Positions 45,277-63,326 of a DNA stretch of 64,000 nucleotides are shown here, one piece after another (position 1 is the stretch's first letter; each line of letters starts with the position of its first letter). The notes beneath the pieces were generated by a model. The model saw nothing but the letters and a program-made list of their open reading frames with translations, did not search any database and was not told where the DNA came from. Both the position numbers and the translations under genes were made by a program. The DNA comes from Bdellovibrionales bacterium CG12_big_fil_rev_8_21_14_0_65_38_15 (GTDB lineage Bacteria > Bdellovibrionota > Bacteriovoracia > Bacteriovoracales > Bacteriovoracaceae), in assembly GCA_002787775.1 (NCBI GenBank), contig PCUW01000034.1:62001-126000 (forward strand). Direction: 5' to 3'.

Positions 45277-45930
45277 ACCGCTAACTGAACTTTTTTCGCC
45301 CAAAAAACTCTTAAGTAAAGAATGAGCAACTTCTTTTGAATTAACGGCGCTATATTTATCAAGAGATCCGACCATCAATGGGTTTAATAGCTTCATCATT
45401 GATCCAGCTATATCCTCAAGTGGTCTGGAGCCAGACTTTCGCCCAAGAAGAAGTCCTGGTCTAGCAATCGTGATTTTATCAAAAGGAATTTGCTTTAATA
45501 CCGCTTCCATCTCTCCTTTTACACGAGAATAAAAGAAAGGTGAGCTTTTAGAAGCACCCTGAGCACTCACAAGAAGAAAATGTTTTATCCCTCGAGCACG
45601 AGCAGACTTTGCGGCAAGAAGAGGAATATCAAAATCAATCTGTCTAAAAGCTTGTTTTGATTTGGCGTTTTTCATGGTGGTACCTAAACAGCAAAAAACA
45701 GCACTGGCGCCAGTAATACACTCGCCTTTTTCGTCTAGGCGCTCCATATCGATGGTTATTTTTTTAAGTTTTGGGTGCTCTAGATCAATTGATCTTCGTC
45801 CAATAGTGATGACTTGATCAATTTCTTCGAGGTCTAAGAGCATACGTGTCAAGTGACCACCAATAAGTCCGGTAGATCCAAGAACAACGACTTTTTGAGC
45901 ATTGCAAAGTGCTTCCATAAGATTGATCAT
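45250..45930 (-). CDS. NAD(P)-binding oxidoreductase (TIP30/HTATIP2-like atypical SDR)
   Basis: VVVLGSTGLIGGHLTRMLL; CCLGTTMKNAKSKQAFRQIDFD; ITIARPGLLLGRKSGSRPLE. Confidence 0.85.
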   Translation of the reverse strand: MINLMEALCNAQKVVVLGSTGLIGGHLTRMLLDLEEIDQVITIGRRSIDLEHPKLKKITIDMERLDEKGECITGASAVFCCLGTTMKNAKSKQAFRQIDFDIPLLAAKSARARGIKHFLLVSAQGASKSSPFFYSRVKGEMEAVLKQIPFDKITIARPGLLLGRKSGSRPLEDIAGSMMKLLNPLMVGSLDKYSAVNSKEVAHSLLKSFLGEKSSVSGLELIEINN

Positions 45931-45961
45931 AGCATGAAGTTTTCACAATCTGGAGTGGCCC

Positions 45962-47188
45962 ATGCCTTCAATACTGATATTTTTACTAGTTTTTGCCTCT
46001 TGTACGAAGAATTTACCTTCTCCTGACAAAAATCAAATAACGATTCTTCACTACAATATTAAAGAACTAACCACTGCAAAAATAAACGATCAAAAAGATG
46101 ATCAATTAAAAGCCGTTAAAAAAGTCATTGCGCCTTTTCAGTCTGATATTCTTTCCATTAATGAAATTCAGTATGATCTTCCAGGTGTGCCCTCTCTTAA
46201 AAATAAAACGAATGGAGAAAATTTAACAAAGCTTGCAAAACGAGTTGGCCTCAATCCAGCAAAATGGAGCCAACTTTTCGCTCCGGCAAACACAGGAAGC
46301 TTTGCAAAAAGAAAGTCTGATGGAAATTATTATGTAGAGGAATCTGCCACTGCCAGAGAGAATGCTGATCCAGTTAATTATGGTCTGTTTCCAGCACAGT
46401 ATTCAACTGCTGCACTCATCAATGCTCCGCTAAGTGAAAAAGTATCAATCAATAAACTGAAATGGATTGCTTTCAATCCATCAGCAAATCCATCACAATA
46501 TAAAATGGCCAATGATCAAAGCTTGCCTGAAGAGATGCCACTCTTTGATAAAAACTTTAATCACGTCGTAGCAAAATTTTACGATAAGGATGTTCACCTC
46601 ATCTTTTTTCACACTGTTCCTAGTTATCATTTTGGAAATAAATTCACACCGAATTATAAAAGAAATGCTGACCAATTAAAATTTCTTGAATGGTATGTCA
46701 CAGGTAAGACTGACTTTGATGTTCCACTTGATCGAACTCAGTGGCCGGCGATTGATAAAGATAGCTACGTCATGGTGATGGGAGATCTCAATGCTGATTT
46801 TCAGCAAAAAGATAATCCGGGAGGTTTTGTTCTAAAACGTTTAATGAAAAAACTTAAGCCTTGGTTAGAAAACCCAGGTCCAACCAATGAAAGCTCAGGC
46901 TTTGGCCCTAATCCCTTTCAACTCACCCTTGATTACCTTTTAGTAAGTCAGAATATCTCGATCAGTGATGCTGCTGTTCTTAGACCTGAATCTGGCTTTC
47001 AAGCCCTAGGTTGCACCAAAGCAGATATGATTAAAGCCAAAAGAGATATTCGTGCTAAGCGTAAGATCATTGATTACATCGATAATAAGACAAAAAAGAA
47101 GTGTTACGCCGCAGTTAGTTATGAATACTATAATGCTAAAACTGCCAGTGATCACTTCCCTATTTATGCAAAGTTAAACCTTGATTAA
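45962..47188 (+). CDS. Lipoprotein, endonuclease/exonuclease/phosphatase (EEP) family
   Basis: MPSILIFLLVFASCTKN lipobox; ITILHYNIKEL; GDLNADFQ; SDHFPIYAKL. Confidence 0.8.
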   Translation: MPSILIFLLVFASCTKNLPSPDKNQITILHYNIKELTTAKINDQKDDQLKAVKKVIAPFQSDILSINEIQYDLPGVPSLKNKTNGENLTKLAKRVGLNPAKWSQLFAPANTGSFAKRKSDGNYYVEESATARENADPVNYGLFPAQYSTAALINAPLSEKVSINKLKWIAFNPSANPSQYKMANDQSLPEEMPLFDKNFNHVVAKFYDKDVHLIFFHTVPSYHFGNKFTPNYKRNADQLKFLEWYVTGKTDFDVPLDRTQWPAIDKDSYVMVMGDLNADFQQKDNPGGFVLKRLMKKLKPWLENPGPTNESSGFGPNPFQLTLDYLLVSQNISISDAAVLRPESGFQALGCTKADMIKAKRDIRAKRKIIDYIDNKTKKKCYAAVSYEYYNAKTASDHFPIYAKLNLD

Positions 47189-47251: not shown

Positions 47252-47902
47252 GTGGAAGAGATTATTGAACAAAATCTTAAAGATGAGATTCCTCATTTTG
47301 AAGATTTCTTAAATGGCATCGGGTTCAAAAGAACTGATGGTGCTGTCTTTGGACTTCTAGTCCTCGCCAAAAGACCACTCACCAGTGAAGAGATTGCTAA
47401 AGAGCTTAATCTTTCTCAACCTGCGGTTAGCTCTTCATTGAAAACATTAAATCTTTACGGCGCCATCGACACACGTGACATGAAAGAAGGTCGTGCAAAG
47501 ACTCATAGTATTCGCGAAGACTCACTTTCAATCGTTTCCAGTGTCTTTAGAAAAAGAGAACAAGAAAATATTGAACGCTTTAGAATCGTTGCCGAACGTT
47601 GTCTTGAACAACTTAAAGATCAAGAACCTTCAAGAGCCAGAAAACTTCGCTCTATCATGGCCACCTGCCAGATTGCTGAAGCCGTGATGAATTTTGTTAT
47701 CGGTTTATCTGGTAGAAGCAGCGACGTTGCCTACCCTCACGTTGTTAAAGCTCTACCTAAAGCCCTTGATTTCATCTCGGGCCTTCCGGTACCAAGTGCA
47801 GAAACTCAAGAAGCTTTGGCGCAACTTAAAACACATATCTCAACTGGATTGGCCGGAAAACTTAGAACTGGATTATCGAGATTAGCAGGAGAAGCGAAAT
47901 GA
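47252..47902 (+). CDS. GbsR/MarR family transcriptional regulator
   Basis: GTG start; PLTSEEIAKELNLSQPAVSSSLKTLNLYGAIDTRDMKEGRAKTHSI wHTH. Confidence 0.9.
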   Translation: MEEIIEQNLKDEIPHFEDFLNGIGFKRTDGAVFGLLVLAKRPLTSEEIAKELNLSQPAVSSSLKTLNLYGAIDTRDMKEGRAKTHSIREDSLSIVSSVFRKREQENIERFRIVAERCLEQLKDQEPSRARKLRSIMATCQIAEAVMNFVIGLSGRSSDVAYPHVVKALPKALDFISGLPVPSAETQEALAQLKTHISTGLAGKLRTGLSRLAGEAK

Positions 47903-49131
47903 CTTTACCTCGTATTGTAATTACTGGTGTCGGCATCGCTGCTCCAAACGGAAATAATCTTGAAGAGTTTAGACACTCCCTACTAAACGGTAAAAGTGGA
48001 TTAACTTTCACTGAAGTTCGCCATATGGGAACTTGGGCCGCTGGTCTTTGCACTTTTGATGAAACAAAACATCAAAACCGTAAGATGAGAAAACGCGGAA
48101 CAAGAGCGGGAGCCATTTCTATTTATTGTGCCAGTGAAGCCATCGCTGACTCTAAACTTGATTTCACTACTATCGATAAAGATAGAGTTGGAATTTATAT
48201 TGGCATTACAGAGCACGGTAATGTTGAAACAGAAAATGAAATTCACGAATTGTATCAAAACAATCTTGATACAGATCTTTGGTCTCACCATCATAATCCA
48301 AGAACAGTTGCCAACAATGCAGCGGGTGAAACATCATTAGCTCTTGGTATCACTGGTCCTGCTTACACTATCGGTGCAGCTTGCGCCGCTGGGAATATGG
48401 GCCTGATTCACGCACTTCAAATGTTACGTCTTGGTGAAATTGATCAAGCGATTGCTGGTGGTGTTTCTGAGTCTCCACAAACTTTTGGAATCTACGCTGC
48501 TTTTAAGGCTCAAGGAGCTTTAGGACACGACGAAGATGCAACAAAAGCGACGAAGCCACTTGATAAAAAAAGAAATGGAATCGCTATCGCAGAGGGCGGT
48601 GCTCTTTATACTTTAGAGCGTTTAGATGATGCGAAAGCTCGTGGAGCAAAAATCTACGGCGAGATTGTTGGCTATCATGTGAATTCAGATGCCACTGATT
48701 TTGTTCTTCCAAACCCAACAAGACAAGCTCAGTGCATGGGCAAGGCGATGAAGATGGCAGGGCTTGGACCAGATGAAATCGATATCGTTAATATGCACGC
48801 AACTGGAACCAATGCTGGTGACGTTCAAGAATGTCAGGCTGTTAGAGAAGTTTTCGGTCAATCACAAAATACATTGATCAATGCCACAAAAGGATTTATT
48901 GGTCACGCCATGGGTGCTGCTGGCGCTTTAGAGCTGGCTGGAAATCTTCCTGCGTTTGAAGATGGCTTTGTTCATCCTTGTCACAATATCACTGAACTTG
49001 ATCCTGAATGCGCCATTAATGGCCTTGTTATCGGTGAGCCAGTGAAAAAGAATGTAAGAGTGATTTTAAATAACTCATTTGGAATGCTTGGTATTAATTC
49101 TAGTCTCATTATTAAAAAATTTGAAAGTTAA
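47899..49131 (+). CDS. Beta-ketoacyl-ACP synthase II-like ketosynthase
   Basis: Cys in IGAACAAGNMG; His in NMHATGTNAGD; His in KGFIGHAMGAAGALE; 4-bp overlap with the regulator. Confidence 0.93.
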   Translation: MTLPRIVITGVGIAAPNGNNLEEFRHSLLNGKSGLTFTEVRHMGTWAAGLCTFDETKHQNRKMRKRGTRAGAISIYCASEAIADSKLDFTTIDKDRVGIYIGITEHGNVETENEIHELYQNNLDTDLWSHHHNPRTVANNAAGETSLALGITGPAYTIGAACAAGNMGLIHALQMLRLGEIDQAIAGGVSESPQTFGIYAAFKAQGALGHDEDATKATKPLDKKRNGIAIAEGGALYTLERLDDAKARGAKIYGEIVGYHVNSDATDFVLPNPTRQAQCMGKAMKMAGLGPDEIDIVNMHATGTNAGDVQECQAVREVFGQSQNTLINATKGFIGHAMGAAGALELAGNLPAFEDGFVHPCHNITELDPECAINGLVIGEPVKKNVRVILNNSFGMLGINSSLIIKKFES

Positions 49132-49146
49132 TTCATAGGAGTAAAT

Positions 49147-49401
49147 ATGACTGCAACAGACGTACGTACAAAAGTTTTAGATATTATCGCCGACATCGCT
49201 CTTGATGATGATGTTACAACAATTGATGACAGTGTTTCTCTAAGAGAACAACTTGATCTTGATAGCATGGACTTTCTTGATATCGTGATGGAGCTTAAGA
49301 AACGTCATAAAGTTGAAGTTCCACAAGAAGATTACCCAAAGCTAGCGACGATGCAATCATGTGTTGATTACTTAAGTCCTAAATTTCAAGCTCTGGCTTA
49401 A
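49147..49401 (+). CDS. Acyl carrier protein
   Basis: 84 aa; LREQLDLDSMDFLDIVMEL with phosphopantetheine Ser in DSM. Confidence 0.93.
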   Translation: MTATDVRTKVLDIIADIALDDDVTTIDDSVSLREQLDLDSMDFLDIVMELKKRHKVEVPQEDYPKLATMQSCVDYLSPKFQALA

Positions 49402-50804
49402 TGGAATTTAAAACATCCTATGATGCGATCGTGGTTGGTGCCGGAATGTCTGGTATGGCCGCCGCGATTCGCCTTGCGATGTTTGATAGAAAAGTCCTCC
49501 TGATTGAAAAGCATAGTATTCCAGGGGGACTCAATTCATTTTACCGAAGAGCTAATCGCAATTTAGATGTAGGTCTTCACGCCCTTACCAATGCTGTCCC
49601 TAAAGGAACAAGAGGCGCTCCGCTAACAAAGCTTTTAAAGCAACTTCGCATTCCTTACGAAAATCTTAAATTATGCCCTCAAACTTATTCACTCATTCGT
49701 TTTCCTGAGAAAACCTTAAGTTTTAGCAATGACTTCAATGAATTTGATGAATTGATTAAAACCACTTTTCCTGAACAATTCAGTGGGTGGACAAATTTTG
49801 TCACTGCCATCAAAGACTTTGATGAAACTAATCTTCAAAATGAATACTTTTCTGCCAAAGAAAAAGCCAATGAGTTTCTAAGTGATCCCCTTCTTATCGA
49901 AATGGTTTTTAGCCCTCTCATGATTTATGGATCTGCGTGGGAGCATGATATGGACTGGTCACAATTTGTGATCATGTTTAAATCTATTTATCTTGAAGGA
50001 CTAGGAAGACCAGTTGGTGGTGTTCGAACCATTATCAAACTTCTTACCGATAAATTAAAAGAACTTAATGTTGATCTTCGTTATAGCTGCGAGCTTCAAT
50101 CGATTGAATCAGTCGATGGCAAAGTTTCAACCGTTCTTCTAAAAGATAGAAAGCTTGGTGAACTTAGCATTCAAACTCAGCAAGTATTTTCGTCTATCGG
50201 CCTACCTGAGACAATGGATAAAACTAATCACAAAGAAGCAAATATTCGTGCCGGTAATATGAGTTTCACCGAGAGTATTTTCTTTTTAAAAGAAAAACCT
50301 CGTGAGCTGGGACAAAACGCTACATTGATTTTTCATAATAATCGCGATCAATATCTTTATCAAAAACCAAAAACTTTAATCGATGATCAAAGTGCGGTGA
50401 TTTGTTTACCTAATAATTATCATGACGATAATGAGTTTGAAGAAGGCATCGTTAGAGTCACCTTTATGGCCAATAACGAACTTTGGACTAATTTATCTGA
50501 GGAAGACTATAAAGCTCAAAAAGAGATCGTCAGCCAAAAAGCCAAGGCTCTTGTTTCAACTTATTTTGAAAAAGAGGCTACCTTTATTTTTGACGACACT
50601 TTTACACCAAAAACAGTCACACGATATACCAGTCATTATGCTGGCGCGGTTTATGGATCTCCTGACAAAACCAGAGATGGAAAAACAGCTATAGATGGAC
50701 TTTATATTACTGGTACAGATCAAGGCTTTTTAGGCATTGTCGGCGCTATGCTTTCAGGTATTTCAATGGCCAATTACCATGGTCTTCAAGGTGGGGCCCA
50801 ATGA
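49401..50804 (+). CDS. CrtI/CrtISO-like FAD-dependent oxidoreductase
   Basis: YDAIVVGAGMSGMAAAIRLAMFDRKVLLIEKHSIPGGLNS; C-term GLYITGTDQGFLGIVGAMLSG; 1-bp overlap with ACP stop. Confidence 0.88.
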   Translation: MEFKTSYDAIVVGAGMSGMAAAIRLAMFDRKVLLIEKHSIPGGLNSFYRRANRNLDVGLHALTNAVPKGTRGAPLTKLLKQLRIPYENLKLCPQTYSLIRFPEKTLSFSNDFNEFDELIKTTFPEQFSGWTNFVTAIKDFDETNLQNEYFSAKEKANEFLSDPLLIEMVFSPLMIYGSAWEHDMDWSQFVIMFKSIYLEGLGRPVGGVRTIIKLLTDKLKELNVDLRYSCELQSIESVDGKVSTVLLKDRKLGELSIQTQQVFSSIGLPETMDKTNHKEANIRAGNMSFTESIFFLKEKPRELGQNATLIFHNNRDQYLYQKPKTLIDDQSAVICLPNNYHDDNEFEEGIVRVTFMANNELWTNLSEEDYKAQKEIVSQKAKALVSTYFEKEATFIFDDTFTPKTVTRYTSHYAGAVYGSPDKTRDGKTAIDGLYITGTDQGFLGIVGAMLSGISMANYHGLQGGAQ

Positions 50805-51835
50805 ATTTTAATAATGTCGTCATTGATGGATGGGCGTCTCATCTTCCACAAAATATTGTTTCAAGTGCTGATATTGAAAAAAGACTCGCTCCAATTTATG
50901 AAAAATTAAATTTACCTGAAGGTCGCCTGGAATTGATGACAGGTATCAAGGAGCGTAGAGTTTGGGATGTTGGCACAACTCCTTCAAGCTTATCGGCTGC
51001 TGCCGCCAACAAACTGTTTGAAAAAAATCCTACCTGGAAAGAAGAAGTTGATCTTTTGATTCACGCTTCTGTTTGCAGAGACTTTTTAGAGCCATCTACT
51101 GCCAGTGTTGTGCATGAACAATTAGGATTAAAAGAAGATTGCACCTTTTTTGATCTTTCCAATGCTTGTCTTGGAGTTTTGAACGCCATCGTTGTAGCGT
51201 CAAAAATGATTGAAGCTGGAACTGTTAAAAGAGCCTTAATTGTCAGCGGTGAAAACGGTGCTCCTCTTCTAGAACAAACTATTCATCGTATTTTAAACGA
51301 TGAAACAATTAATCGAAAAAATATCAAAAAGCTTTTTGCCAACCTTACTATTGGCTCCGCTGCTATCGCCTTCACCTTAACGAAAGGCGACAATACCAGC
51401 GACGGACTAAAACTACTTGGCGGCGCTTCAATGGTAGATTCAAGTGCTAATCATTTATGTCGCGGCGATGGTTCACCCCATTCACTAACAATGGAAACGG
51501 ATAGTGAAGCCCTAATGAAAGCCGGAGTCATCTTGGCGAAAAAAACTTGGGCAAAAGCTAAAGAGAATTTAAACTTAAAAGCCACAGATGATTTTTGGGC
51601 CATAGGCCATCAAGTTGGCTCGGCCCATGAAATGCTAACGATGCAAGCGCTTGAGCTTGAAGAGCGACCGACTTATATTACTTATCCATTTTTAGGAAAC
51701 ACTGGTTCTGCAGCATTACCAGTAACTTTAATTGAATTACTTAATCAAAAAGAGCAGCCTCAAAAAGGTCAAACAATAGCACTACTAGGAATTGGTTCTG
51801 GACTCTCCTGTGTCATGCTAGGAGTACAAAGATGA
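50801..51835 (+). CDS. oleA: OleA-like 3-oxoacyl-ACP synthase III family (head-to-head acyl condensation)
   Basis: VCRDFLEPSTASVVHEQLGL; FDLSNACLGVLNAIVVA; AIGHQVGSAHE; GNTGSAALPVTL; followed directly by OleB and OleC. Confidence 0.88.
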   Translation: MNFNNVVIDGWASHLPQNIVSSADIEKRLAPIYEKLNLPEGRLELMTGIKERRVWDVGTTPSSLSAAAANKLFEKNPTWKEEVDLLIHASVCRDFLEPSTASVVHEQLGLKEDCTFFDLSNACLGVLNAIVVASKMIEAGTVKRALIVSGENGAPLLEQTIHRILNDETINRKNIKKLFANLTIGSAAIAFTLTKGDNTSDGLKLLGGASMVDSSANHLCRGDGSPHSLTMETDSEALMKAGVILAKKTWAKAKENLNLKATDDFWAIGHQVGSAHEMLTMQALELEERPTYITYPFLGNTGSAALPVTLIELLNQKEQPQKGQTIALLGIGSGLSCVMLGVQR

Positions 51836-52710
51836 AACCTACCCCACAGTGGCTAGAAGATTATAAAGAAGAATATCCTTTTATTCCGAAAAGGCTAAAG
51901 CTTAAGAATGGTCATGAGATGAGCTATGTTGACGAAGGCCAAGGCCCAGTCATCCTCATGCTTCATGGTAACCCGACTTGGTCATTTTATTATCGCAATC
52001 TGATTAAACACTTTGCTCCAAATCACCGCGTAATTGTTCCTGATCATTTAGGCATGGGATTATCTGATCAACCACAAGATTTTGAATATCAACTTCATCA
52101 GCACGTGGCACACGTTGAAGAGTTATTAGACTTTCTGAATATCGAAAAATTTTCTTTAATTGTTCATGATTGGGGCGGAGCAATTGGTTTTGGTGTAGCG
52201 ACACTAAGACCTCAAGCCGTCGAAAAAGCTGTCATTCTTAATACCGCTGCCTTTAATGCCGGCGAATGGATTCCAAGACGTATTTCATTATGTCGTGCTC
52301 CAGTCTTTGGCGAGCCATTGGTTCGTGCACTTAATGGGTTTGCTCTTCCTGCGGCTTATATGACAACAGTGAAGCCATTGCCAAAACATATTAAAAAAGC
52401 TTATTTGGCTCCATACAGTGATTGGAAATCTCGTGTCGCCGTAGCGAAATTTGTACAAGACATTCCTCTTTCAAAAAATCATCCAAGCTTTGAAACATTA
52501 GCAGCGATTGAGTCTGCACTTCCAGCACTTGAATTTCCAAAGCTCATTATTTGGGGCGAAAAAGACTTTTGCTTTGATATGAGATTCTTTAATAAGTGGA
52601 AGACCATCTTTCCTGAAGCACAATCAATTGTTTTTTCGGCCGGTCACTATGTGCTTGAAGATATGCCAACCCAGTGTGCCGATGCCATCGAGGGATTCTT
52701 TGCCCCATGA
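51832..52710 (+). CDS. oleB: OleB-like alpha/beta hydrolase (haloalkane-dehalogenase-like)
   Basis: LHGNPTWSFYYRNLI; LIVHDWGGAIGFG; IWGEKDFCFD; GHYVLEDMP; ATGA overlap with oleA. Confidence 0.88.
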   Translation: MKPTPQWLEDYKEEYPFIPKRLKLKNGHEMSYVDEGQGPVILMLHGNPTWSFYYRNLIKHFAPNHRVIVPDHLGMGLSDQPQDFEYQLHQHVAHVEELLDFLNIEKFSLIVHDWGGAIGFGVATLRPQAVEKAVILNTAAFNAGEWIPRRISLCRAPVFGEPLVRALNGFALPAAYMTTVKPLPKHIKKAYLAPYSDWKSRVAVAKFVQDIPLSKNHPSFETLAAIESALPALEFPKLIIWGEKDFCFDMRFFNKWKTIFPEAQSIVFSAGHYVLEDMPTQCADAIEGFFAP

Positions 52711-54290
52711 ATATAGCTTCTAGACTGATCGAGTTTGCTCTTAAAAACCCGAACAAGACAGCGATCATTGATGCAAGAACTGATGAGTCCATCACTTTTG
52801 GTGAACTCGAAGATAAAATTGCAAGAATTTGTCACTCTTTACTAGAGCTTGGATTTAAGCCCGGCTCCAGAACGCTTCTTTTTGTAAAACCTTCACTCGA
52901 TTTTCATGCCCTAGTCTTTAGCTTATTTAAAATCGGTATTATTCCAGTGCTCATCGATCCTGGAATGGGACGCAAAAATTTACTAGCAGCGATTAAGCAT
53001 ACAAATCCAGACGGTATGATTGCAGAGCCGATTGTTCATTACTTGAGCTACTTTTTTAGAAGCACCTTCAAAAGCGCTAAAATCAAAGTCTGGACAAGTG
53101 ATATAAAGAAGTTTCTTGGCTCAAAACGTGCTGATGAAGTTGCCAAAGTTAATGAACATGATCCGGCCGCGATATTATTCACTTCAGGCGGTACTGGGAC
53201 TCCTAAAGGTGTTGTTTACACTCACCATATTTTTTCTAAGCAAACCGAAAAACTGCAAGAGATGTTTGGCCTAACTAGTGATGATGTTGATCTTCCAGGT
53301 TTTCCACTGTTTTCTTTATTTACTCTCGCCATGGGAATGACGACGCTCATTCCTTCAATGGATCCATCTAAACCTGGTCAATGTGATCCAGCCAAGCTTG
53401 CTGCAAATATTTTAAAATACCAAGCGACATTTGTGGCAGGCAGTCCTGCCATCTGGTCTCGAGTAGCGGCTTTTGCCATTGAAGCTGAACTTAAATTTCA
53501 AAGCATTAAGCAAGTTGTCATGTTTGGAGCACCTGTCAGAAATGAACTTCATCGTGATTTACTTTCGATTATTCCAAACGGAAATACCTATGCCCCTTAT
53601 GGTGCAACCGAGGCGCTACCACTTTGCTTGAGTGATGGTAAGTGGCTACTTGAAAATACAATTGATAAAACGAATCAAGGCAGTGGAACTTGTGTTGGAA
53701 CATCGATTGATGGTGTTGATATTCAAATTATTCAGATTAGCGATGATGCCATTAATGAAATGAATCCATCACTACTAAAAGATAGAAATCAAATTGGTGA
53801 AATCATTGTTCGCGGTCAAACGGTTACAAAAACTTATGATCAGATGCCTGAAGCTACGAAACTTTCAAAAATTAAAGATGGTGAAACTTTTTGGCATCGC
53901 ATGGGCGATATTGGTTATCTCGATGACGATAATCGACTCTGGTTTTGCGGTCGAAAAGCACACCGAATTGATAGTGCAAACGGGCTGATGGCTCCGATTC
54001 GAGTTGAGGCCATTTTTAATCAGCATCCTAAGGTTTCTAGAAGTGCTCTTATAAGTAATTCTCAAAATGAGCCCGCAATTGTCATTGAGTTAAAGCACGG
54101 TTTAAAACCAAATGATTTACTTCGAAAAGAGCTCCTTGCTCTTGCTAAAAGCTCTGCTTTAACAAGTTCTATTTCACAAGTTTTTTTCAACGATTCTTTT
54201 CCTGTAGATGTTCGACACAATATTAAGATCGATAGGATAAAACTCTCAAAGATGTATTTTAAAACTAAAATGTTCAAGTACAATCACTAA
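52707..54290 (+). CDS. oleC: OleC-like AMP-binding beta-lactone synthetase
   Basis: Start re-set to ATG 52707 (ATGA overlap with oleB stop); ILFTSGGTGTPKGVVYTH; YAPYGATEALP; MGDIGYLDDDNRLWFCGRKAHRI. Confidence 0.9.
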   Translation: MNIASRLIEFALKNPNKTAIIDARTDESITFGELEDKIARICHSLLELGFKPGSRTLLFVKPSLDFHALVFSLFKIGIIPVLIDPGMGRKNLLAAIKHTNPDGMIAEPIVHYLSYFFRSTFKSAKIKVWTSDIKKFLGSKRADEVAKVNEHDPAAILFTSGGTGTPKGVVYTHHIFSKQTEKLQEMFGLTSDDVDLPGFPLFSLFTLAMGMTTLIPSMDPSKPGQCDPAKLAANILKYQATFVAGSPAIWSRVAAFAIEAELKFQSIKQVVMFGAPVRNELHRDLLSIIPNGNTYAPYGATEALPLCLSDGKWLLENTIDKTNQGSGTCVGTSIDGVDIQIIQISDDAINEMNPSLLKDRNQIGEIIVRGQTVTKTYDQMPEATKLSKIKDGETFWHRMGDIGYLDDDNRLWFCGRKAHRIDSANGLMAPIRVEAIFNQHPKVSRSALISNSQNEPAIVIELKHGLKPNDLLRKELLALAKSSALTSSISQVFFNDSFPVDVRHNIKIDRIKLSKMYFKTKMFKYNH

Positions 54291-54292
54291 GC

Positions 54293-54306
54293 TTCTGAAT
54301 TCAGAA
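54293..54306. repeat. 14-bp perfect palindrome TTCTGAATTCAGAA immediately after the oleC stop
   Basis: Read directly; no loop, so not an obvious terminator. Confidence 0.4.
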
Positions 54307-54400
54307 TATAGCCGTCAAAAACTAACCAGTCTCACAATTACACCAGTCCCCTTGTGGTCCCAACACCTCTAATAAGTTTAGCTATTTAGCCTAGAAATTA

Positions 54401-54417
54401 TTGGCACGCGCTTAGCA
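54401..54417 (+). promoter_or_regulatory. Candidate sigma-54 promoter TTGGCACG-CGCT-TAGCA
   Basis: One mismatch to YTGGCACG-N4-TTGCW; GG and GC 12 bp apart; 45 bp before the EEP start codon. Confidence 0.6.
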
Positions 54418-54461
54418 ATAACAATAAATAAGAAAAGCTGGATCAAGACAAGGAGGTTTTG

Positions 54462-55289
54462 ATGCGTGCAGGACAAATCATCAGGATGACGATCGTAGGG
54501 CTCGCCTTTTCCACTACAACCCAAGCGGCACTGTGGTTCAAGATACCAAGTGCCAATGAAGAGGTACAACAGTTTGGACACGACTCTAAAGATGAACTCG
54601 ATCCACAAAAGATTGAAGTCATGATTTGGAATCAATACAAAGGAAAAGAGAGATCTTTTAGAAGAGAATACCAAAGACTAACTCATGCAAAAGATGTTCT
54701 TATCTTGCAAGAAACACTTCTTGATAAAGACATGAAACAAATTTACGGCTCCAATAGAGACTTTCATTCTATCTTTGCCGCTAGTTTTGTATACCGCTTT
54801 AGTAAGAAACCAACAGGAGTCACCTCAGCATCAACGGTTAAAGCATCTAGTTATCTAGCACAAAGAAGTCGTGGCGTAGAAATTGCGGGATCAACACCAA
54901 AAATGATTCTCTTTGCGACATACCCAATCAAAGGTCGAGCCGAAGAATTAATGACGGTTAATATTCATGCGCTTAACTCCGTTACATGGCAAACATTAGC
55001 CGTTCAAATATTGGATGCACTCAAGGTGGTGAAAGAGCATGAGGGACCTGTTGTGTTTGCAGGAGACTTTAATACCTGGTCAAAAAATAAAATGGATTAT
55101 GTGAAATCTGCCATGAAAAAAGCTGGGCTTGAAGAAGTTCAATTTGAGCATTCTGAGCGTAAAATGAAAGTCTTTGGACGAGAGCTAGACCATGCCTTCA
55201 CTCGAGGTCTTAAAATAACTAATGCCGTCGTAGAAAAGACTGATGGCGCAGATCATCAACCCCTTCTCCTAACGGCGCAAGTTCGATAA
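54462..55289 (+). CDS. Secreted EEP-family protein inserted between oleC and oleD
   Basis: ATG 54462 with AGGAGG; signal-like N-terminus; VMIWNQYKG; ILQETLLD; GDFNTWSKNKMD; LDHAFTRGLK; GADHQPLLL. Confidence 0.85.
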   Translation: MRAGQIIRMTIVGLAFSTTTQAALWFKIPSANEEVQQFGHDSKDELDPQKIEVMIWNQYKGKERSFRREYQRLTHAKDVLILQETLLDKDMKQIYGSNRDFHSIFAASFVYRFSKKPTGVTSASTVKASSYLAQRSRGVEIAGSTPKMILFATYPIKGRAEELMTVNIHALNSVTWQTLAVQILDALKVVKEHEGPVVFAGDFNTWSKNKMDYVKSAMKKAGLEEVQFEHSERKMKVFGRELDHAFTRGLKITNAVVEKTDGADHQPLLLTAQVR

Positions 55290-55298
55290 ACTAAGTGG

Positions 55299-56318
55299 AT
55301 GGAAACATCCACTTCTAAAAATATACTGGTCACAGGTGCTGGCGGCTTTTTGGGTCGCTATATCGTTAAAGCGCTTTTAAAAAAAGGTCATCAAGTTGTA
55401 GGCCTTGGCCGCACCAAGCATCAAGATCTGATCGATCAAGGTGTTCGCTGGGTTCAAGCTGATATCAGAGATCTAGAGAAAACACGACTTGCCTTAAAAA
55501 ATATCGACACTGTTTTTCACTGCGCTAGTAAAGTCGCCATGTGGGGAGAATGGGATGAGTTTGAATCCATCAATGTCCAAGGGACACAAAACCTCATCAC
55601 CGCTTGTCTTGAAAATAATGTAAAAAAGTTTATTTATACTTCAACTCCAAGTGTTGTCTTTGGAAAAGAGTCGATTGATGGTGGAGATGAGAAACTTCCA
55701 TATCCAACACAAAGCTTATCTTTGTATGGCAAATCAAAGGCCATTGCAGAAAAAAATGTTTTAGACATTGATCAATCTAAACTTTTAACTTGCGCCATTA
55801 GACCACATTTAATTTTTGGCCCTGGCGATGATCATCTCGTACCAAGACTGGTTCAAGCCGCTAAAGATAATAAACTAAAGATCATTGGAAACGGCGAAAA
55901 CCTAGTTGATGTCATCGCGGTTGAAAATGCAGCCGAAGCCCATATCCTTGCTTTTGAAAATATTAGTCCATCATCTCCCATCTGTGGCCAAGCTTACTTC
56001 GTGGCTCAAGACAAACCGGTTAAGCTTTGGGACTTCACTAATCACCTTTTAAAAATTCATGGAACAAAACCGGTCACCAAGACCATTTCGTTTAAGCTGG
56101 CTTATTTTGTCGGTTGGTTATGTGAGACGGTGGCAAAGTTCATTGGATATAAAAAAGATAAGCTTCCCATGACTCGATTTGTAGCGATGCAATTATCTAA
56201 GAGTCATTGGTTTCATCACAATAAAGCGAAAAATCACTTTGCCTACAAACCACTTATCACTACAGAGCAGGCTCTAAAGAACTATCAAGATCATTTAGAA
56301 GCGGGTAATCGCTGCTGA
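55299..56318 (+). CDS. oleD: OleD-like NAD(P)-dependent 3-beta-HSD/SDR reductase
   Basis: ILVTGAGGFLGRYIVKALLKKGHQV; DTVFHCASKVAMWGEWDEFESINVQGTQN; LYGKSKAIAEK; RPHLIFGPGDDHLVPRLV. Confidence 0.9.
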   Translation: METSTSKNILVTGAGGFLGRYIVKALLKKGHQVVGLGRTKHQDLIDQGVRWVQADIRDLEKTRLALKNIDTVFHCASKVAMWGEWDEFESINVQGTQNLITACLENNVKKFIYTSTPSVVFGKESIDGGDEKLPYPTQSLSLYGKSKAIAEKNVLDIDQSKLLTCAIRPHLIFGPGDDHLVPRLVQAAKDNKLKIIGNGENLVDVIAVENAAEAHILAFENISPSSPICGQAYFVAQDKPVKLWDFTNHLLKIHGTKPVTKTISFKLAYFVGWLCETVAKFIGYKKDKLPMTRFVAMQLSKSHWFHHNKAKNHFAYKPLITTEQALKNYQDHLEAGNRC

Positions 56319-58366
56319 TTTGAAACTCTAGCCGCTTCAATAACACCAGGTCCCTGCCACTGTCCTTCTCTAAACATGGCCCTAATTGGTAGTCCAATTT
56401 CTCTTGAGGCACTTATTTGGCCATAAGAGTGAACGTTGGCCAGGCCAAACATAGAAAAGACATCTATTTTATCTCTTGATTGATTCAGGAATTCATCGAG
56501 AAAATCTTTTAAGCGCCAAAGAGGTACGATCTTTAAGGCTTCACTCTCACTTCTCATAGAAAGCTTATTCATACAGGCTTCAAGATACATCTTCTTTTTC
56601 TTGGCCGAATAATACCACTTCGTCGACTTCTTACATTCTTTATAAGAAGACATACTAATTTCACGGTGGTTCACCTCTAAAATATAGTTGCGATAATCTT
56701 TTTGAAGCTTCCACTTACAAAAGTTAAATAATGATCTAAAGCCATAGAGCTTATTCTTTGGCTTTGTCTCGCAAATATCATCAATCATCTCATGCATGAG
56801 CGCTGTTTCCATATGGGAGATCAAGCGCACACCATTTTCAGAGATCTGAAAGGTATTTTGAAATTGATAAGGAGGTTTCAGACCATCTTGATCAATCAAT
56901 GAAATAATTGCAGGATCGGCGCCAGAGTAATAACTCGTGTAACTGGTGAAATAATCTCGCATCTTTTTTGACTTCGTCGCCACTGTAGCTTCATGATAGA
57001 TATTTAAAAACATTGAAGACGATTCATCATTTAAGACGAGATCTTTTCTATCATCTACAAGATTCTCAACTGATTCATATTCAAATGAGACTTTCTTGGT
57101 TTCAATCGCCGCATTATTGACAACTGTTGGCATTTTTAACAAAGATGAGAACAGCTCAGAGACTAAGCGAGAGACAATATTTTGAACTTGTCTTTGCTTG
57201 GTAAAGTTATGACGAAAGAAACTTCGAATCACTCCATCTTTAACAGTTTGGACATGCTCTGTTCTCTTTTCTTTTCGTCCCCCAAAAATGAGAGCGGCAT
57301 ACTTCGATTTCATGATTTCAGTTTTTCTCGTTTCAGAGCTTACAATATAAGGAGCAAGGTCATCCACTCGAGGCGATCTAAGCTTTAGGACGTCTTGAAG
57401 ACCTACATACAAAAGTGGATCACGATTTGAATCAATATCAGACAAGGCCTGTTGATCAAGATTTAAATTCCAAGACTGTGCATGAGACAGTGAATAACTA
57501 AAGTCATAAGAGAATAATGTAATCTGTAGTAAACCTAAAAAATCAGCTTGAAGCTTTGCCTGGGCCGCAATTGCAGCAGTTTTCTCACTAGTATAGGTAA
57601 GCCTGATGCGTTCATTAGGATCAACCGGAGCATCATCTGGTCCAATAGATTGAATCGTTAAATTAGCCGTCTTTTCAAAACTTGCCATGATGCCAGCACC
57701 AACTGCAAGGCCATAGCCAATAGGAGCGCTTACTAGCCCACCAGCTTTAAACGATAAGGCATCCTCTTTTTCGAGGTACTCATAAGCGTCAAGTTTTGAA
57801 AGACTTTCAGGTCTAAACCAGCGAAAGGGAAAAACTAATTTATCGTAATCTTTAGTTAAACCCTCTTCATAGGAGCTTGCAAAGTGAGTCATGCGATAAA
57901 CTCTTTTAAAAGCAATACCAGCAAAGGCAGCTAAATTGGTTTCGCTTATGTCGATAACGTCTTGATCTCTAAGTTCGCCTAGATAACCTTGGGCATCGAT
58001 AAGAATGGTAAGTTCATCGACAATAATCCAACGGTGATCATCAAAAAGATCAGGTGCTAGTTGGCGATTAGCATTGATAGAGAAACCGCCGAAATTCTTA
58101 ACTAAGGAAAATCCAACACCAGACAGGCCACCAACCACATTTAAGGTATTGCCTGCTAAGACCCTTGAAGCTGCATCACTAGCACGCAGACGATAGTCAC
58201 TGAAGTCTCTGGCAATTCGGTCAAAGAGTGGTATTTCTTGAGCAGCAGGAATGGGAAGGGCAAAACCATTAGCATTTTGTTTAAGCGAAAAACTTTGAAA
58301 TTCCTGTGACCAGGCATGGCCTGACAAGAACAAAAAGATTCCTAAATGGATTAACACTTTAAACAT
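56291..58366 (-). CDS. Large secreted protein of unknown function (691 aa)
   Basis: Signal peptide MFKVLIHLGIFLFLSGHAWSQ; no recognised domain. Confidence 0.65.
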   Translation of the reverse strand: MFKVLIHLGIFLFLSGHAWSQEFQSFSLKQNANGFALPIPAAQEIPLFDRIARDFSDYRLRASDAASRVLAGNTLNVVGGLSGVGFSLVKNFGGFSINANRQLAPDLFDDHRWIIVDELTILIDAQGYLGELRDQDVIDISETNLAAFAGIAFKRVYRMTHFASSYEEGLTKDYDKLVFPFRWFRPESLSKLDAYEYLEKEDALSFKAGGLVSAPIGYGLAVGAGIMASFEKTANLTIQSIGPDDAPVDPNERIRLTYTSEKTAAIAAQAKLQADFLGLLQITLFSYDFSYSLSHAQSWNLNLDQQALSDIDSNRDPLLYVGLQDVLKLRSPRVDDLAPYIVSSETRKTEIMKSKYAALIFGGRKEKRTEHVQTVKDGVIRSFFRHNFTKQRQVQNIVSRLVSELFSSLLKMPTVVNNAAIETKKVSFEYESVENLVDDRKDLVLNDESSSMFLNIYHEATVATKSKKMRDYFTSYTSYYSGADPAIISLIDQDGLKPPYQFQNTFQISENGVRLISHMETALMHEMIDDICETKPKNKLYGFRSLFNFCKWKLQKDYRNYILEVNHREISMSSYKECKKSTKWYYSAKKKKMYLEACMNKLSMRSESEALKIVPLWRLKDFLDEFLNQSRDKIDVFSMFGLANVHSYGQISASREIGLPIRAMFREGQWQGPGVIEAARVSNQQRLPASK

Positions 58367-58579
58367 GAATCCTACAGGTGCGAAACATTCGTTTCAGCAG
58401 TTTAAGAATCTGTGGCCTAATGAGAGGACGAACAGCTAAGGCAACACAGAGGCTTTCGCATTCTACCCTATCGGCAATTTCGTTCGTAGTGTAAGACTAA
58501 GTATTAAAAATTAAAGAAACTAAAAAGATTAAGTTTTCTGATATTCGCCAAGCTTTTAAGGCAGAGGGGATCTAAGTGA

Positions 58580-59362
58580 TTAATGCGCGGCTTGAACAAC
58601 CTGTTCATCAAAATAATTGGCCGACATGCCCGCATCAACAACTAAACCAGTTGCATTAAAGCCACTAGATTTTGGTGACATTAAAAAGGCAATGGACGAT
58701 CCGACTTCGTCAGTCTTTAGAGCTTGCTTTCTAAGTGTCAGCTTTTCAGCAAAAAGATAGTTTTCAATATAACCAGGAATCCCAGCAGAAGCTGATGTTT
58801 TAAGCGGCCCAGAGCAAATACCATTGACTCGTATATTTTTAGCACTTAGTGACTTGGCTAAAAAAGCCACGGTTGAATCAAGTGCGGCCTTGATTGGTCC
58901 CATATAACCGTAATTGGTCGCTCTTGTATTCGAAATAGAAACAGTAACGATCGATGAGTTTTCTTCGAAGCAATCGATAAGAGCATTACTCATTTCAATC
59001 AGTGAGAAACATGAAATACGTGTTGCTTGAGCAAAGTCATTCCAGTTCGTTTCATGAAAAGCTTTAGGCTCAGAGTAATTAGCAAAAGCCATTGAATGTA
59101 AAAAACCTGCGATTTTTACGTTTTCGTTCTTTAAGTTTTGTCCAAGCGCTGTAATAGTTTCGCTTTTTTCAACATTGACGACGATGACTTTAGAGTCTGG
59201 AAATAATGTTGAAACTTTTTGTGCGTGATCTGAACTTTGAACCGTTAGGATGAGTTTGGCACCGTTGTCTTGCAATATTTTAGCAGCGCTATAGGCAACG
59301 CTCTTTTTATTGGCGACGCCTGAAATAACAAATGTCTTATCGCTTACTGCTAAAAAATCCAT
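58580..59362 (-). CDS. fabI: FabI-like enoyl-ACP reductase / SDR
   Basis: Start re-set to ATG 59362; FVISGVANKKSVAYSAAKIL; NYGYMGPIKAAL (Tyr-x6-Lys); IRVNGICSGPLKTSASAGI. Confidence 0.85.
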   Translation of the reverse strand: MDFLAVSDKTFVISGVANKKSVAYSAAKILQDNGAKLILTVQSSDHAQKVSTLFPDSKVIVVNVEKSETITALGQNLKNENVKIAGFLHSMAFANYSEPKAFHETNWNDFAQATRISCFSLIEMSNALIDCFEENSSIVTVSISNTRATNYGYMGPIKAALDSTVAFLAKSLSAKNIRVNGICSGPLKTSASAGIPGYIENYLFAEKLTLRKQALKTDEVGSSIAFLMSPKSSGFNATGLVVDAGMSANYFDEQVVQAAH

Positions 59363-59370
59363 TTCAACCT

Positions 59371-59775
59371 CTAAATTGAAGCACAAGTAAAATCAAGCGC
59401 CACAACAACTTTGCCGTTAACACGGGTTTTACCTTTCATCATATAGGCATTGCCAATAACCTCGACAAGCTCAACTTCCATCGCAAGTTCATCACCTGGT
59501 TTAACTAAACCGCGAAACTTCACATTATCAACTCTTGAAACAACTCCAAGTCCGCCTTCACTGCCCTGGCCGGCCATTAAACAAGCTCCAGATTGAAAAA
59601 GCGCTTCTTGAAGAAGTACTCCCGGCATCACTGGGTTGCCAGGAAAGTGACCTTTAAAAAAATCTTCCGTACCTTTGACTTCAAAGCTAGTCAGAATTTT
59701 TTTATCAAGTCTTTCGATAATTTTATCTACAAATAAAAAAGGCTCTCTTTGTGGAATTAAACTTTTAACATCCAT
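59371..59775 (-). CDS. fabZ: 3-hydroxyacyl-ACP dehydratase FabZ-like
   Basis: FFKGHFPGNPVMPGVLLQEALFQSG; catalytic His and Glu positions present. Confidence 0.93.
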   Translation of the reverse strand: MDVKSLIPQREPFLFVDKIIERLDKKILTSFEVKGTEDFFKGHFPGNPVMPGVLLQEALFQSGACLMAGQGSEGGLGVVSRVDNVKFRGLVKPGDELAMEVELVEVIGNAYMMKGKTRVNGKVVVALDFTCASI

Positions 59776-60518
59776 TAAAGGCCACCCGTAATCTCAAGCG
59801 AGGCGCCAGTGATATAAGACGCGTCTTTAGAGGCAAGAAATAAAACAGCAGAAGCCACTTCTTCAATCTTACCAAAACGCTTTAGAGGAACCTGTTTTTT
59901 GTATTCTTTGACTTGTTCTTCAGGAAGATCTGCAATCAATTCAGTTTCGATAAATCCTGGAAGGATATTGTTAACAGTAATCCCACGTTTACCAAGCTCT
60001 TTTGAGAGAACTTTTGAGATGGCTTCTTGACCAGCTTTAGAAGCTGCATAGTTGGCTTGACCAGGTAAGCCTAATCTTCCACCAATGGAAGACATATTAA
60101 TAATTCTGCCATAGCGATTCTTCATCATTAGTGGCACTGCATATTTAGACATAAGAAATGTTCCACCCAAATTGGTATCTAGAACATTTTGCCATTCATC
60201 ATCTGGCATCATGGCAAGCATATTATCTTTTCTAATTCCTGAGTTATTAATGAGGACATCGAGTCTGTTGGCTTCAGTTTCAAGCTTAGCAAAAAATGAT
60301 TGAATCCCAACTGAATTGGTTACATCAAATTTAGCCAGTCTTAATTGCTCACCATAAGCAGCTTGTGATTCTTTAAACGCATTGGCGGCTTCATCGTTTC
60401 TAGCGTAAGTGGCATAAACAGTGGCGCCTGCTTTTAAAAAAGCTTCAGTTAAACCTCTGCCGATACCGCGAGTACCACCAGTAATAACCACAACCTGATC
60501 TTTATAATCAAAACTCAT
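59775..60518 (-). CDS. fabG: 3-oxoacyl-ACP reductase FabG-like
   Basis: VVITGGTRGIGRGL; LINNSGIRKDNML; NYAASKAGQEAISK; ITVNNILPGFIETEL. Confidence 0.93.
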   Translation of the reverse strand: MSFDYKDQVVVITGGTRGIGRGLTEAFLKAGATVYATYARNDEAANAFKESQAAYGEQLRLAKFDVTNSVGIQSFFAKLETEANRLDVLINNSGIRKDNMLAMMPDDEWQNVLDTNLGGTFLMSKYAVPLMMKNRYGRIINMSSIGGRLGLPGQANYAASKAGQEAISKVLSKELGKRGITVNNILPGFIETELIADLPEEQVKEYKKQVPLKRFGKIEEVASAVLFLASKDASYITGASLEITGGL

Positions 60519-61960
60519 AATGAACCTTCTATTGATGGTGAAGTAACTGTATCGAGATAATTATCGACCTCGTGAGATTGAATCACACCGTAATTCGCGG
60601 CGCCGAGCCAGCCTGACATAATAATACCAACCGAACCGGCATGAAAAAGACCTTTGATTTGTTGATGCATCCCCATAGATATTTCTAGGCCTTCAAACTT
60701 CGTTCCAAAGCTTGAACCTTTTTGGTGATGAGTATACTTCTCGACTGTAAGCGGTGTTGAGCAATCGATAAAATCAATCTTTTCACGCACACCTGGAACC
60801 ACTTTTTCAAGCGTCGATAAAGCTCGCTCAATCACGAACTCTTTTTGTTTTTTATATTCGTCTTCTGATAAATTTTTCCAATCTTCGTAACGAGCGTTTG
60901 ATGAAGACACAACCGCGTAGCGATCATCAAGATGAGGTCTGATTTCTGGATAATAGACTGAGAAAGTTTGACTTCCAATTTTAGGAGATAAAATTAAGTC
61001 TGTATTAAAGTCACTATCATCTGAGTAAAAAATCAACTCTCCAATATCTGGCAGCGATTCACCTTTTTTAATACCCATAAAAACTTGGCACGAAGATGTG
61101 TTCAGTCTGACCTGTTTCGTTTTTTCTACAAACTCAGAAGTAAAATGTTCTTCCCCGACCATCTTTTGAACTGTTGTTCTAATATTGGCATTGGATAAAA
61201 CACTATTGGCCGCAATGAAATGTCCTTTAACTTCAACACCTTTAGCTTGGCCGTCTTCGATAACAATCTTATCGACTTTTGCATGCATTTGAATATCGAC
61301 ACCATTTTTTAGAAGCTCTTCTTTCATCATTGAAATAAGAACATCAGTGCCACCACGAAAGATATAAACACCTTTACTCATAAAATTAGAAAAGACGATA
61401 CCGTAAGTAATGGCCGGATCTTCAAGAGTTGACCCGTTAGCGTAAACGATGGGTTCTAATAAAAAGCGTACAACATCGTTACGATCAGGAAACCATTTTT
61501 GAAATAACTCACCGTTATTCATTTGGTTATTGTCATAAAAATTCATCGCCGCGAGTTCTTCAAAAAAACCATCGACCTTAGACTTTTCAATTTCAAATTT
61601 TTCAACCAGCACACTGGTAAAATGTTCTTTGGTAAAATCCGTCTCTACTTCAAATTGTGGATTAACGTAGCGAACTTTTTCGACTTGAACGATTTTACTG
61701 GCAATTTCTTTGCCCCAGTATTTTCGACAAGTCTTAATCATACCAACTGGAAAACCGTGCAAAGACACATCAAAAATATGATCCCCTTGCGCTCTTTTAA
61801 ACCACGTCGCAAAACCACCTAGCTTATTATGTGATTCTAGAAGAAGAACCTTGCGACCATTCATGGCGAGTTTATTCGCGGCCGTCATGCCAGCTAAACC
61901 AGAGCCTACGACGATGACATCGTATGACCCTTCAATCTTGTCTTTTGACTTAAAAAGCAT
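60515..61960 (-). CDS. CrtI/CrtISO-like FAD-dependent oxidoreductase (second copy)
   Basis: YDVIVVGSGLAGMTAANKLAMNGRKVLLLESHNKLGGFATWF; VLSNANIRTTVQKM; 4-bp overlap with fabG. Confidence 0.88.
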   Translation of the reverse strand: MLFKSKDKIEGSYDVIVVGSGLAGMTAANKLAMNGRKVLLLESHNKLGGFATWFKRAQGDHIFDVSLHGFPVGMIKTCRKYWGKEIASKIVQVEKVRYVNPQFEVETDFTKEHFTSVLVEKFEIEKSKVDGFFEELAAMNFYDNNQMNNGELFQKWFPDRNDVVRFLLEPIVYANGSTLEDPAITYGIVFSNFMSKGVYIFRGGTDVLISMMKEELLKNGVDIQMHAKVDKIVIEDGQAKGVEVKGHFIAANSVLSNANIRTTVQKMVGEEHFTSEFVEKTKQVRLNTSSCQVFMGIKKGESLPDIGELIFYSDDSDFNTDLILSPKIGSQTFSVYYPEIRPHLDDRYAVVSSSNARYEDWKNLSEDEYKKQKEFVIERALSTLEKVVPGVREKIDFIDCSTPLTVEKYTHHQKGSSFGTKFEGLEISMGMHQQIKGLFHAGSVGIIMSGWLGAANYGVIQSHEVDNYLDTVTSPSIEGSL

Positions 61961-62021: not shown

Positions 62022-63251
62022 TTAGCGGCCAGCTGGTGGGGTTGTTGTGGACAAAACGTAGATGCCTTGTCCTAAGAATCTCTCGCCGTCTTTGCTTAAG
62101 ATTCCAGCGTGAAAAGCGAGCAGTCCAGAGTCATTGAGAGATAATCCACCAATAAACCCTTGATTATCAGCTAGATCGTAAATCTTAGCCGTTTCAACAT
62201 CTGAAGGTACAAGATCGCCTTGTTTTACAACGGCATTAAATCCATCCCATGTCCCAGTGAAAATAGCGCTTTTACCTGATTTTAAACGACCTCTAAAAGC
62301 TACGAGGCCTTTAGAATTTACGACTGGAGCAAAGGCTTCAAGCGCTTCAAGATCACCCTGACCTTCAATCGCTACCGCTTTTACTTTTCCTTCACCGAAT
62401 AAAAAGATGGCTTTTTTGTCACCTGAAATTGTTGCAGTAAAAACAACATGCTTCGCATCTGAAATACCAACAGAGTTACTAAAGCCTAAGAATAATGAAT
62501 TTGGATCGGCATGAATATCAACAGCGATAACTTCAAATGATCCATCTGGTTTCCATAGACGAATAGTATCAGGTTGACTCTCATCAGTTTGATCGCGCTC
62601 ACCACGACGAACCTTGGCAGCAACAAAACCTGAGTTATTCAAGACAGGGCGAAATAAATAAGAAAGAGTTGTGCCGTTTGGCTCTTTAACTGCTTCACGA
62701 GCAATTGTTCTTGCTTGAGAACCATTAACATAACGAAAAGAACGATCACCATTAGCATCAACAACTCGAGTGACGACTGTGCCTATATCGTTAATTGATG
62801 AGAATGAGAATGCTTGGTTTTGCTCTGGGCGAATAACCATTGTTGTAGCGCGAGTGTTTGAATCAAATTTAAAAACACCGTCTGTTACACCAAAATCAAA
62901 TTGGCTAAAAACCAAATCACCATTGTTGTTAAGAGAAGGATCAGAAATTAAACGGCCTTCAACAGTTGAGCGATAAACAATACGACCTTGAGTTCCTGAG
63001 GCAGAAAACCAAACACCTGAAGTTGCTTCACCACCGATAACATCGATATCAAACGCAACATCACCACGATTGTTAATTTTAACATCAGCAATGCCAAGTA
63101 CTGAGCCTGCTGGTAGACCAAATCCGTCGTTACTATTTGCTCTTGCAACTAGAGTTGCATTTACAAGTTGAACGTCACTTGGAGGTAGGTCTTGGGCAAA
63201 AATGCCGAGTGAAAAGACACATAAAAATAAATAGCATACGAACTTAAACAT
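62022..63251 (-). CDS. Secreted protein with NxxGxxxF-type tandem repeats
   Basis: Start re-set to MFKFVCYLFLCVFSLGIFAQ; repeated N(N)xGD/xVxF segments (LNNNGDLVFSQ, INDIGTVVTRV, LNNSGFVAAKV, VNSKGLVAFRG, LNDSGLLAFHA). Confidence 0.7.
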   Translation of the reverse strand: MFKFVCYLFLCVFSLGIFAQDLPPSDVQLVNATLVARANSNDGFGLPAGSVLGIADVKINNRGDVAFDIDVIGGEATSGVWFSASGTQGRIVYRSTVEGRLISDPSLNNNGDLVFSQFDFGVTDGVFKFDSNTRATTMVIRPEQNQAFSFSSINDIGTVVTRVVDANGDRSFRYVNGSQARTIAREAVKEPNGTTLSYLFRPVLNNSGFVAAKVRRGERDQTDESQPDTIRLWKPDGSFEVIAVDIHADPNSLFLGFSNSVGISDAKHVVFTATISGDKKAIFLFGEGKVKAVAIEGQGDLEALEAFAPVVNSKGLVAFRGRLKSGKSAIFTGTWDGFNAVVKQGDLVPSDVETAKIYDLADNQGFIGGLSLNDSGLLAFHAGILSKDGERFLGQGIYVLSTTTPPAGR

Positions 63252-63326
63252 TATTGGTTCCCCTCTCAATGATGCAGCTAAAAGATAACAAAGTGGGATG
63301 GCATGCGGCAAGGGTAACGCAGACGG

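Follow-up and report, generated by a model that had tools for sequence, protein, structure and literature searches.

What does a complete OleABCD pathway for head-to-head hydrocarbon synthesis gain from lying next to genes for acyl-chain elongation and two CrtI-like flavoproteins? The question is raised by positions 47,252-61,960 of a 64,000-nucleotide stretch of DNA (referred to here as the window; contig PCUW01000034.1, positions 62,001 to 126,000) from Bdellovibrionales bacterium CG12_big_fil_rev_8_21_14_0_65_38_15. We find that the locus, in which an Ole pathway is joined by a type II acyl synthase of its own and by two CrtI-like flavoproteins, is real, widely conserved and coherent. As to its function, it is probably the equivalent, in discrete type II enzymes, of the Pfa-Ole systems, in which a dedicated, probably polyunsaturated chain bound to an acyl carrier protein (ACP) would be condensed by OleA.

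Upon re-annotation of this region, all genes named in the first-pass annotation were found in their places. They form two arms, one on each strand, with a ketosynthase (KS), ACP and the Ole enzymes on the + strand, and a ketoreductase (KR), a dehydratase (DH) and an enoyl reductase (ER) on the - strand; each arm also encodes one of the flavoproteins, FAD1 and FAD2.

47252..47902, + strand: REG, ArsR/TrmB-type winged-helix regulator of 216 aa (Pfam HTH_5 and TrmB above cut-off)
47899..49131, + strand: KS, FabF-related ketosynthase of 410 aa (Cys162/His300/Lys331/His336 intact; gate loop SFGMLGINS)
49147..49401, + strand: ACP, dedicated acyl carrier protein (DSMD phosphopantetheine serine)
49401..50804, + strand: FAD1, CrtI/CrtISO-like flavoprotein of 467 aa, proposed acyl-ACP isomerase or desaturase
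50801..51835, + strand: OleA, head-to-head Claisen condensing thiolase (NCBIfam PRK09258 above cut-off)
51832..52710, + strand: OleB, beta-lactone decarboxylase, an alpha/beta hydrolase (Pfam Abhydrolase_1, haloalkane dehalogenase models, position)
52707..54290, + strand: OleC, beta-lactone synthetase, AMP-binding (NCBIfam PRK09274 above cut-off)
55299..56318, + strand: OleD, 2-alkyl-3-oxoalkanoate reductase (NF042423/NF042422 best but below cut-off; synteny)
58580..59386, - strand: ER, divergent FabI-type enoyl reductase (Y-x6-K kept)
59371..59775, - strand: DH, FabZ-type dehydratase (GHFPGNPVMPGV motif and catalytic Glu)
59775..60518, - strand: KR, FabG-type ketoreductase (Ser-Tyr-Lys set)
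60515..61960, - strand: FAD2, CrtI/CrtISO-like flavoprotein of 481 aa, among the best-conserved module proteins

The tight packing described earlier, including a 15-nt gap between KS and ACP, was confirmed by the coordinates. REG and KS overlap by 4 nt, ACP and FAD1 by 1 nt, and the FAD1/OleA, OleA/OleB and OleB/OleC junctions by 4 nt each (the oleC ATG is at 52707). On the - strand the overlaps are 4 nt for FAD2/KR, 1 nt for KR/DH and, given a TTG start, 16 nt for DH/ER. REG, which precedes KS in about 17 examined loci, is probably the cluster regulator.

Are the elongation genes simply the cell's ordinary fatty acid synthase (FAS)? The first-pass annotation would have given up its reading had these been the only FAS genes in the genome, and they are not. 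In the 3.3 Mb assembly (G000), FabH, FabD, FabG, ACP and FabF lie in canonical order on contig C21, FabI is on contig C48, and FabZ is on contig C54 between lpxD and lpxA. Each fab gene of the locus has a housekeeping paralogue elsewhere (about 24-36% identity between the proteins), and these separate canonical genes rule out a housekeeping role for the locus set. Besides the housekeeping FabF, the locus KS is the only KAS I/II-type ketosynthase that the genome encodes, and there is therefore no Pfa megasynthase; multidomain PfaA/PfaC-type ketosynthases were not found in this 93% complete assembly. A third FabZ-like gene is present at G000:C31:4278-4745 (L167:3278-3745), outside both the locus and the lpx cluster and beside methionine-salvage-type genes.

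The proteins of the module themselves look active but specialised, judging from their residues. KS scores 297 bits against the NCBIfam FabF model, and because this is under the equivalog cut-off of 494, it is not an ordinary FabF; its identity to the genome's own FabF is 32%. Cys162, His300, Lys331 and His336 are kept in 14/14 aligned module sequences. In the alignment with the genome's own FabF, the gate motif reads SFGMLGINS where FabF has SFGFGGTNS, and Thr stands in place of the FabF pocket residue I108 (E. coli numbering). By alignment, KS differs from FabF in its acyl pocket and gate and has an intact Cys-His-His set. The ACP is 57-96% identical to the corresponding ACPs of relatives and 32% identical to the housekeeping one. 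KR keeps Ser-Tyr-Lys, with 36% identity to the housekeeping FabG on C21 and a score of 241 bits against the FlxB model (below the 340 cut-off); DH keeps the GHFPGNP...E motif; and ER keeps the Tyr-x6-Lys pair, with 30% identity to the housekeeping FabI on C48. Neither an acyltransferase (AT) nor a phosphopantetheinyl transferase is found among the genes of the locus.

The Ole enzymes could be assigned with differing ease. OleA is an OleA-type thiolase and not FabH, as it scores 375 bits against PRK09258 (cut-off 285) and its best PDB matches, over 339 residues, are Xanthomonas-type OleA structures; the alignment shows the catalytic Cys, Glu, His and Asn positions to be conserved. OleC reaches 560 bits against PRK09274 (cut-off 478), which identifies it as a beta-lactone synthetase, and both olefin beta-lactone synthetase models rank next, under their strict cut-offs. 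The best matches of OleD are two 2-alkyl-3-oxoalkanoate reductase models, at 339 and 319 bits and below the cut-off of 580. OleB, a hydrolase with the haloalkane dehalogenase fold, is recognised chiefly from its context, its gene being flanked by oleA and oleC in nearly all loci. Fold family and synteny together place OleB and OleD in about 28-30 loci. For the OleA of Halobacteriovorax marinus, a p-nitrophenyl ester assay was reported to show activity (PMC7064751).

Do the two arms belong together? We searched for KS, OleA and FAD2 in 369 sampled genomes of the phylum Bdellovibrionota, 129 of them from the host family. Within the family KS is present in 107/129 genomes, OleA in 106/129 and FAD2 in 106/129, while FAD1 was found in 94/115. 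All three searched genes occur in 96/129, none in 16/129, and one or two in 17/129, many of the last being fragmented assemblies. The association of KS with FAD2 within the family gives a Fisher p = 3e-12, with kinship not corrected for. Outside the family, KS and FAD2 were found only jointly and never without the other two genes, in a single genome (G237) that also has OleA. The gene set recurs in more than 30 genera, which is far beyond chance. Pairwise distance correlations among the proteins are positive, which is uninformative beyond shared descent. OleA by itself was seen in six genomes, all outside the host family and belonging to two other families. The three such loci that we read (L119-L121, in G288, G289 and G357), from two other Bdellovibrionota families, carry plain OleABCD with no KS, ACP or flavoprotein genes.

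Gene order is equally telling. FAD2 is downstream of FAD1 in 50/50 genomes in which both lie on one contig, and in 48/50 of these the two are convergent and 6-20 kb apart. Two re-arrangements are most instructive. In genus g7 (G052 and G007; loci L041 and L159) a single strand reads KS-ACP-FAD1-OleA-OleB-OleC-OleD-FAD2-KR-DH-ER, and because these genomes carry all genes on one strand, the - arm is tied to Ole. In G237, a member of another Bdellovibrionota family, a one-strand operon KS-ACP-FAD1-FAD2-KR-DH lies on a different contig from OleABCD (contigs C211/C90, loci L117/L118), the latter headed by a regulator divergent from oleA (L118). Because this operon holds both flavoproteins apart from OleABCD, they belong with the acyl-ACP module. 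G237 is the sole carrier among 47 genomes of its family, which suggests that the module was acquired by horizontal transfer. The expectation that the arms would be co-conserved in relatives has thus been borne out, and the two arms form one functional unit. As for mobile carriers, alignments of FAD2 and KS found no relatives among viral contigs, and plasmids searched with FAD2, KS and OleA yielded remote generic homologues only, or none. The only match in a genome-contig scan with FAD1 was the sister metagenome-assembled genome Halobacteriovorax sp. SP4097.

What, then, might the two flavoproteins do? A CrtI/carotenoid-desaturase fold is confidently predicted for both: the AlphaFold models have pLDDT (per-residue confidence) values of 88 for FAD1 and 83 for FAD2, and the top PDB match of each is the gamma-carotenoid desaturase 4rep, at 16% identity. 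Among NCBIfam models both fall far below the cut-offs of every carotenoid enzyme family, the best being carot_isom (77 and 126 bits for FAD1 and FAD2, respectively, vs a cut-off of 587), with crtI_fam at 47 and 84 bits vs 238. FAD2 is 53-88% identical to its relatives. Some genomes show apparent stop codons within FAD2, which we attribute to read-through beyond a shorter C-terminus; end-trimming cleared them in the three sequences aligned.

We propose the following pathway. KS, ACP, KR, DH and ER would act as a dedicated type II synthase that lengthens a chain on its own ACP, with malonyl-ACP supplied by the housekeeping FabD. FAD1 and FAD2 would install, move or isomerise double bonds on the ACP-bound chain, taking the place of the isomerising dehydratase domains of Pfa, and the FabI-like ER would saturate some positions only, so that the chain could remain polyunsaturated. 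OleA would then receive two chains from ACP and join them head to head, after which OleD would reduce the product, OleC would form a beta-lactone, and OleB would decarboxylate it to a long polyunsaturated hydrocarbon. The suggestion of the first-pass annotation, that the extra elongation enzymes and the two flavoproteins make a specialised chain for OleA, is supported in outline by the co-conservation, the re-arrangements and the separate housekeeping FAS. We infer the polyunsaturation, the role of each flavoprotein, the hand-over from ACP to OleA and the hydrocarbon product by analogy with known systems.

The closest of these analogies is Pfa-Ole. In Shewanella-type bacteria Pfa supplies a 16:4 chain to OleA, and the in vivo OleA substrate was reported to be acyl-ACP (PMC6463001); the Shewanella Pfa-Ole product is C31:9. 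In Geobacter bemidjiensis pfa and ole genes lie in tandem, and C31:9 is made (PMC4882568; PMC3098273). The present locus resembles the Pfa-Ole systems of Shewanella, Photobacterium and Geobacter bemidjiensis in having a dedicated synthase beside ole, in its KS/ACP/KR/DH/ER functions and in the proposed hand-over from ACP. However, the AT, chain-length factor and isomerising DH of Pfa are domains of large proteins with several domains each, whereas here the proteins are discrete and of type II, two CrtI-like flavoproteins are proposed for the isomerising step, and the AT is presumably FabD. A second precedent is Desulfotalea psychrophila, which lacks Pfa yet makes C31:8/C31:9; its FASII clusters, which include three phytoene-dehydrogenase-like genes, were linked to these hydrocarbons (PMC2649909). 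Compared by gene content, the clusters of Desulfotalea and of the anammox bacterium Kuenenia (PMC2649909, PMC4790861) are alike in an extra FabF, ACP, FabZ and/or FabG together with CrtI-like flavoproteins, but they add radical SAM enzymes, methyltransferases or ligases and several FabF paralogues, with FabI elsewhere. The present locus, in contrast, has one KS, a FabI-type ER, no radical SAM gene and a direct linkage to oleABCD. The first-pass annotation did not know this combination as a described system; that statement has to be qualified, as the Desulfotalea FASII clusters and Pfa-Ole are known precedents (PMC2649909, PMC6463001, PMC4882568).

Two other comparisons are more distant. The classical OleABCD loci of Xanthomonas, Shewanella and Micrococcus share OleA-D and their usual order with the present one, whose OleA and OleC score above curated cut-offs, but they draw on the general FAS pool, whereas the present locus has its own KS, ACP, KR, DH, ER and two flavoproteins. 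Discrete KS, ACP, KR and DH are also found in type II polyene polyketide synthase clusters, among them those for aryl polyenes and flexirubin, and the KR resembles FlxB; unlike these clusters, the locus has an enoyl reductase and lacks chain-length factor and aromatic starter genes.

Several points weigh against our proposal. The arms lie on separate contigs or at a distance in several genera. Sequence cannot tell whether a CrtI-like flavoprotein acts as desaturase, isomerase or reductase, and because neither of the two anammox CrtI-like proteins desaturated phytoene (PMC4790861), activity in this class is unproven. The open-access papers searched contained no hydrocarbon or lipid analysis of a carrier. 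A more specific version of our proposal, in which the type II synthase makes methylene-interrupted polyunsaturated chains through FAD1 and FAD2 acting as isomerases or desaturases on acyl-ACP and is wired to OleABCD, is put forward tentatively, as a good possibility that falls somewhat short of an even chance.

It is also conceivable, though unlikely, that the chain is specialised in some other way (length, branch or a single cis bond) without being polyunsaturated; FAD1 and FAD2 would then be enoyl or dienoyl reductases, or one-bond isomerases like RetSat/CrtISO, and the product a mono- or di-unsaturated olefin. On one hand, the complete KR/DH/ER set could yield saturated chains, and both flavoproteins prefer the carotenoid isomerase model over the desaturase one, albeit far under the cut-off. 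On the other hand, ordinary chains are already made by the housekeeping FAS, two divergent flavoproteins kept family-wide imply more than saturation, and the Desulfotalea precedent is polyunsaturated.

CrtI-like enzymes usually work on long free hydrocarbons in membranes. This, together with the position of FAD1 immediately before oleA, would fit a scheme in which chain length alone comes from the KS/ACP/KR/DH/ER set and both flavoproteins work later than OleA, on a ketone, beta-lactone or olefin that has already been joined. We consider it improbable, as G237 keeps both flavoprotein genes in its KS-ACP-KR-DH operon with oleABCD on the other contig, and in almost all loci FAD2 is the first gene of the KR-DH-ER operon; both flavoproteins are thereby tied to the acyl-ACP module. 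Very improbable is a beta-lactone or ketone as the end product: these would come from OleC and OleA alone, and the identity of OleB is partly contextual, but almost all loci keep oleB between its neighbours oleA and oleC, and oleB is what beta-lactone clusters lack. Finally, that the arms are unrelated neighbours, an Ole operon beside a spare FAS operon, is hardly credible, for the convergent orientation and the genera with arms apart are outweighed by the joint presence and absence, the fixed order in 50/50 genomes, the g7 single-strand array and the joint G237 operon.

If the more specific version of our proposal is true, the locus would be a third route to chains of the polyunsaturated fatty acid type, besides oxygen-dependent desaturases and Pfa megasynthases. 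The Pfa-lacking route to polyunsaturated hydrocarbons in Desulfotalea and the roles of CrtI-like proteins in Desulfotalea and in anammox (ladderane) bacteria have been questions since 2009, and the locus may answer how predatory-type marine bacteria, which carry this conserved set, make highly unsaturated hydrocarbons without the enzyme known for the task. Both questions are testable, as the set is compact and single-copy (about 11 genes, no radical SAM) and a relative, Halobacteriovorax marinus, is cultured. The comparison further suggests that the design of a private synthase plus Ole arose at least twice, with Pfa and with type II enzymes.

Two further genes lie within the region.

54459..55289, + strand: EEP, endonuclease/exonuclease/phosphatase-fold protein between oleC and oleD, not core
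56291..58366, - strand: ORF691, secreted-looking 691-aa protein between the arms, no Pfam match, optional neighbour

Neither was accepted as a core part. Among the loci examined, EEP lies inside the Ole operon only in the host genus (G000, G005). ORF691, which has conserved cysteines and belongs to no Pfam family, is present in 10/32 fetched loci from different genera, beside or between the arms, at 27-67% identity. Recurrent tailoring genes (radical SAM, methyltransferase, P450) were not found in the 32 loci, and no annotated gene of the window locus has a Pfam match to radical SAM.

The flanks of the core vary between genera. Upstream of the regulator, 44009-47188 holds an SPFH/Band-7 gene, a 173-aa open reading frame, a short-chain dehydrogenase/reductase gene and a second EEP-family gene, and parts of this chromosomal context are found again in several genera (clusters c1, c2, c8, EEP0). 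On the other side, a gene for a DUF7453 protein (62022-63311, - strand) lies 61 nt upstream of FAD2, with which it is possibly co-transcribed; it also adjoins FAD2 in several other loci, from several genera (L036, L037, L043, L046 and L163).

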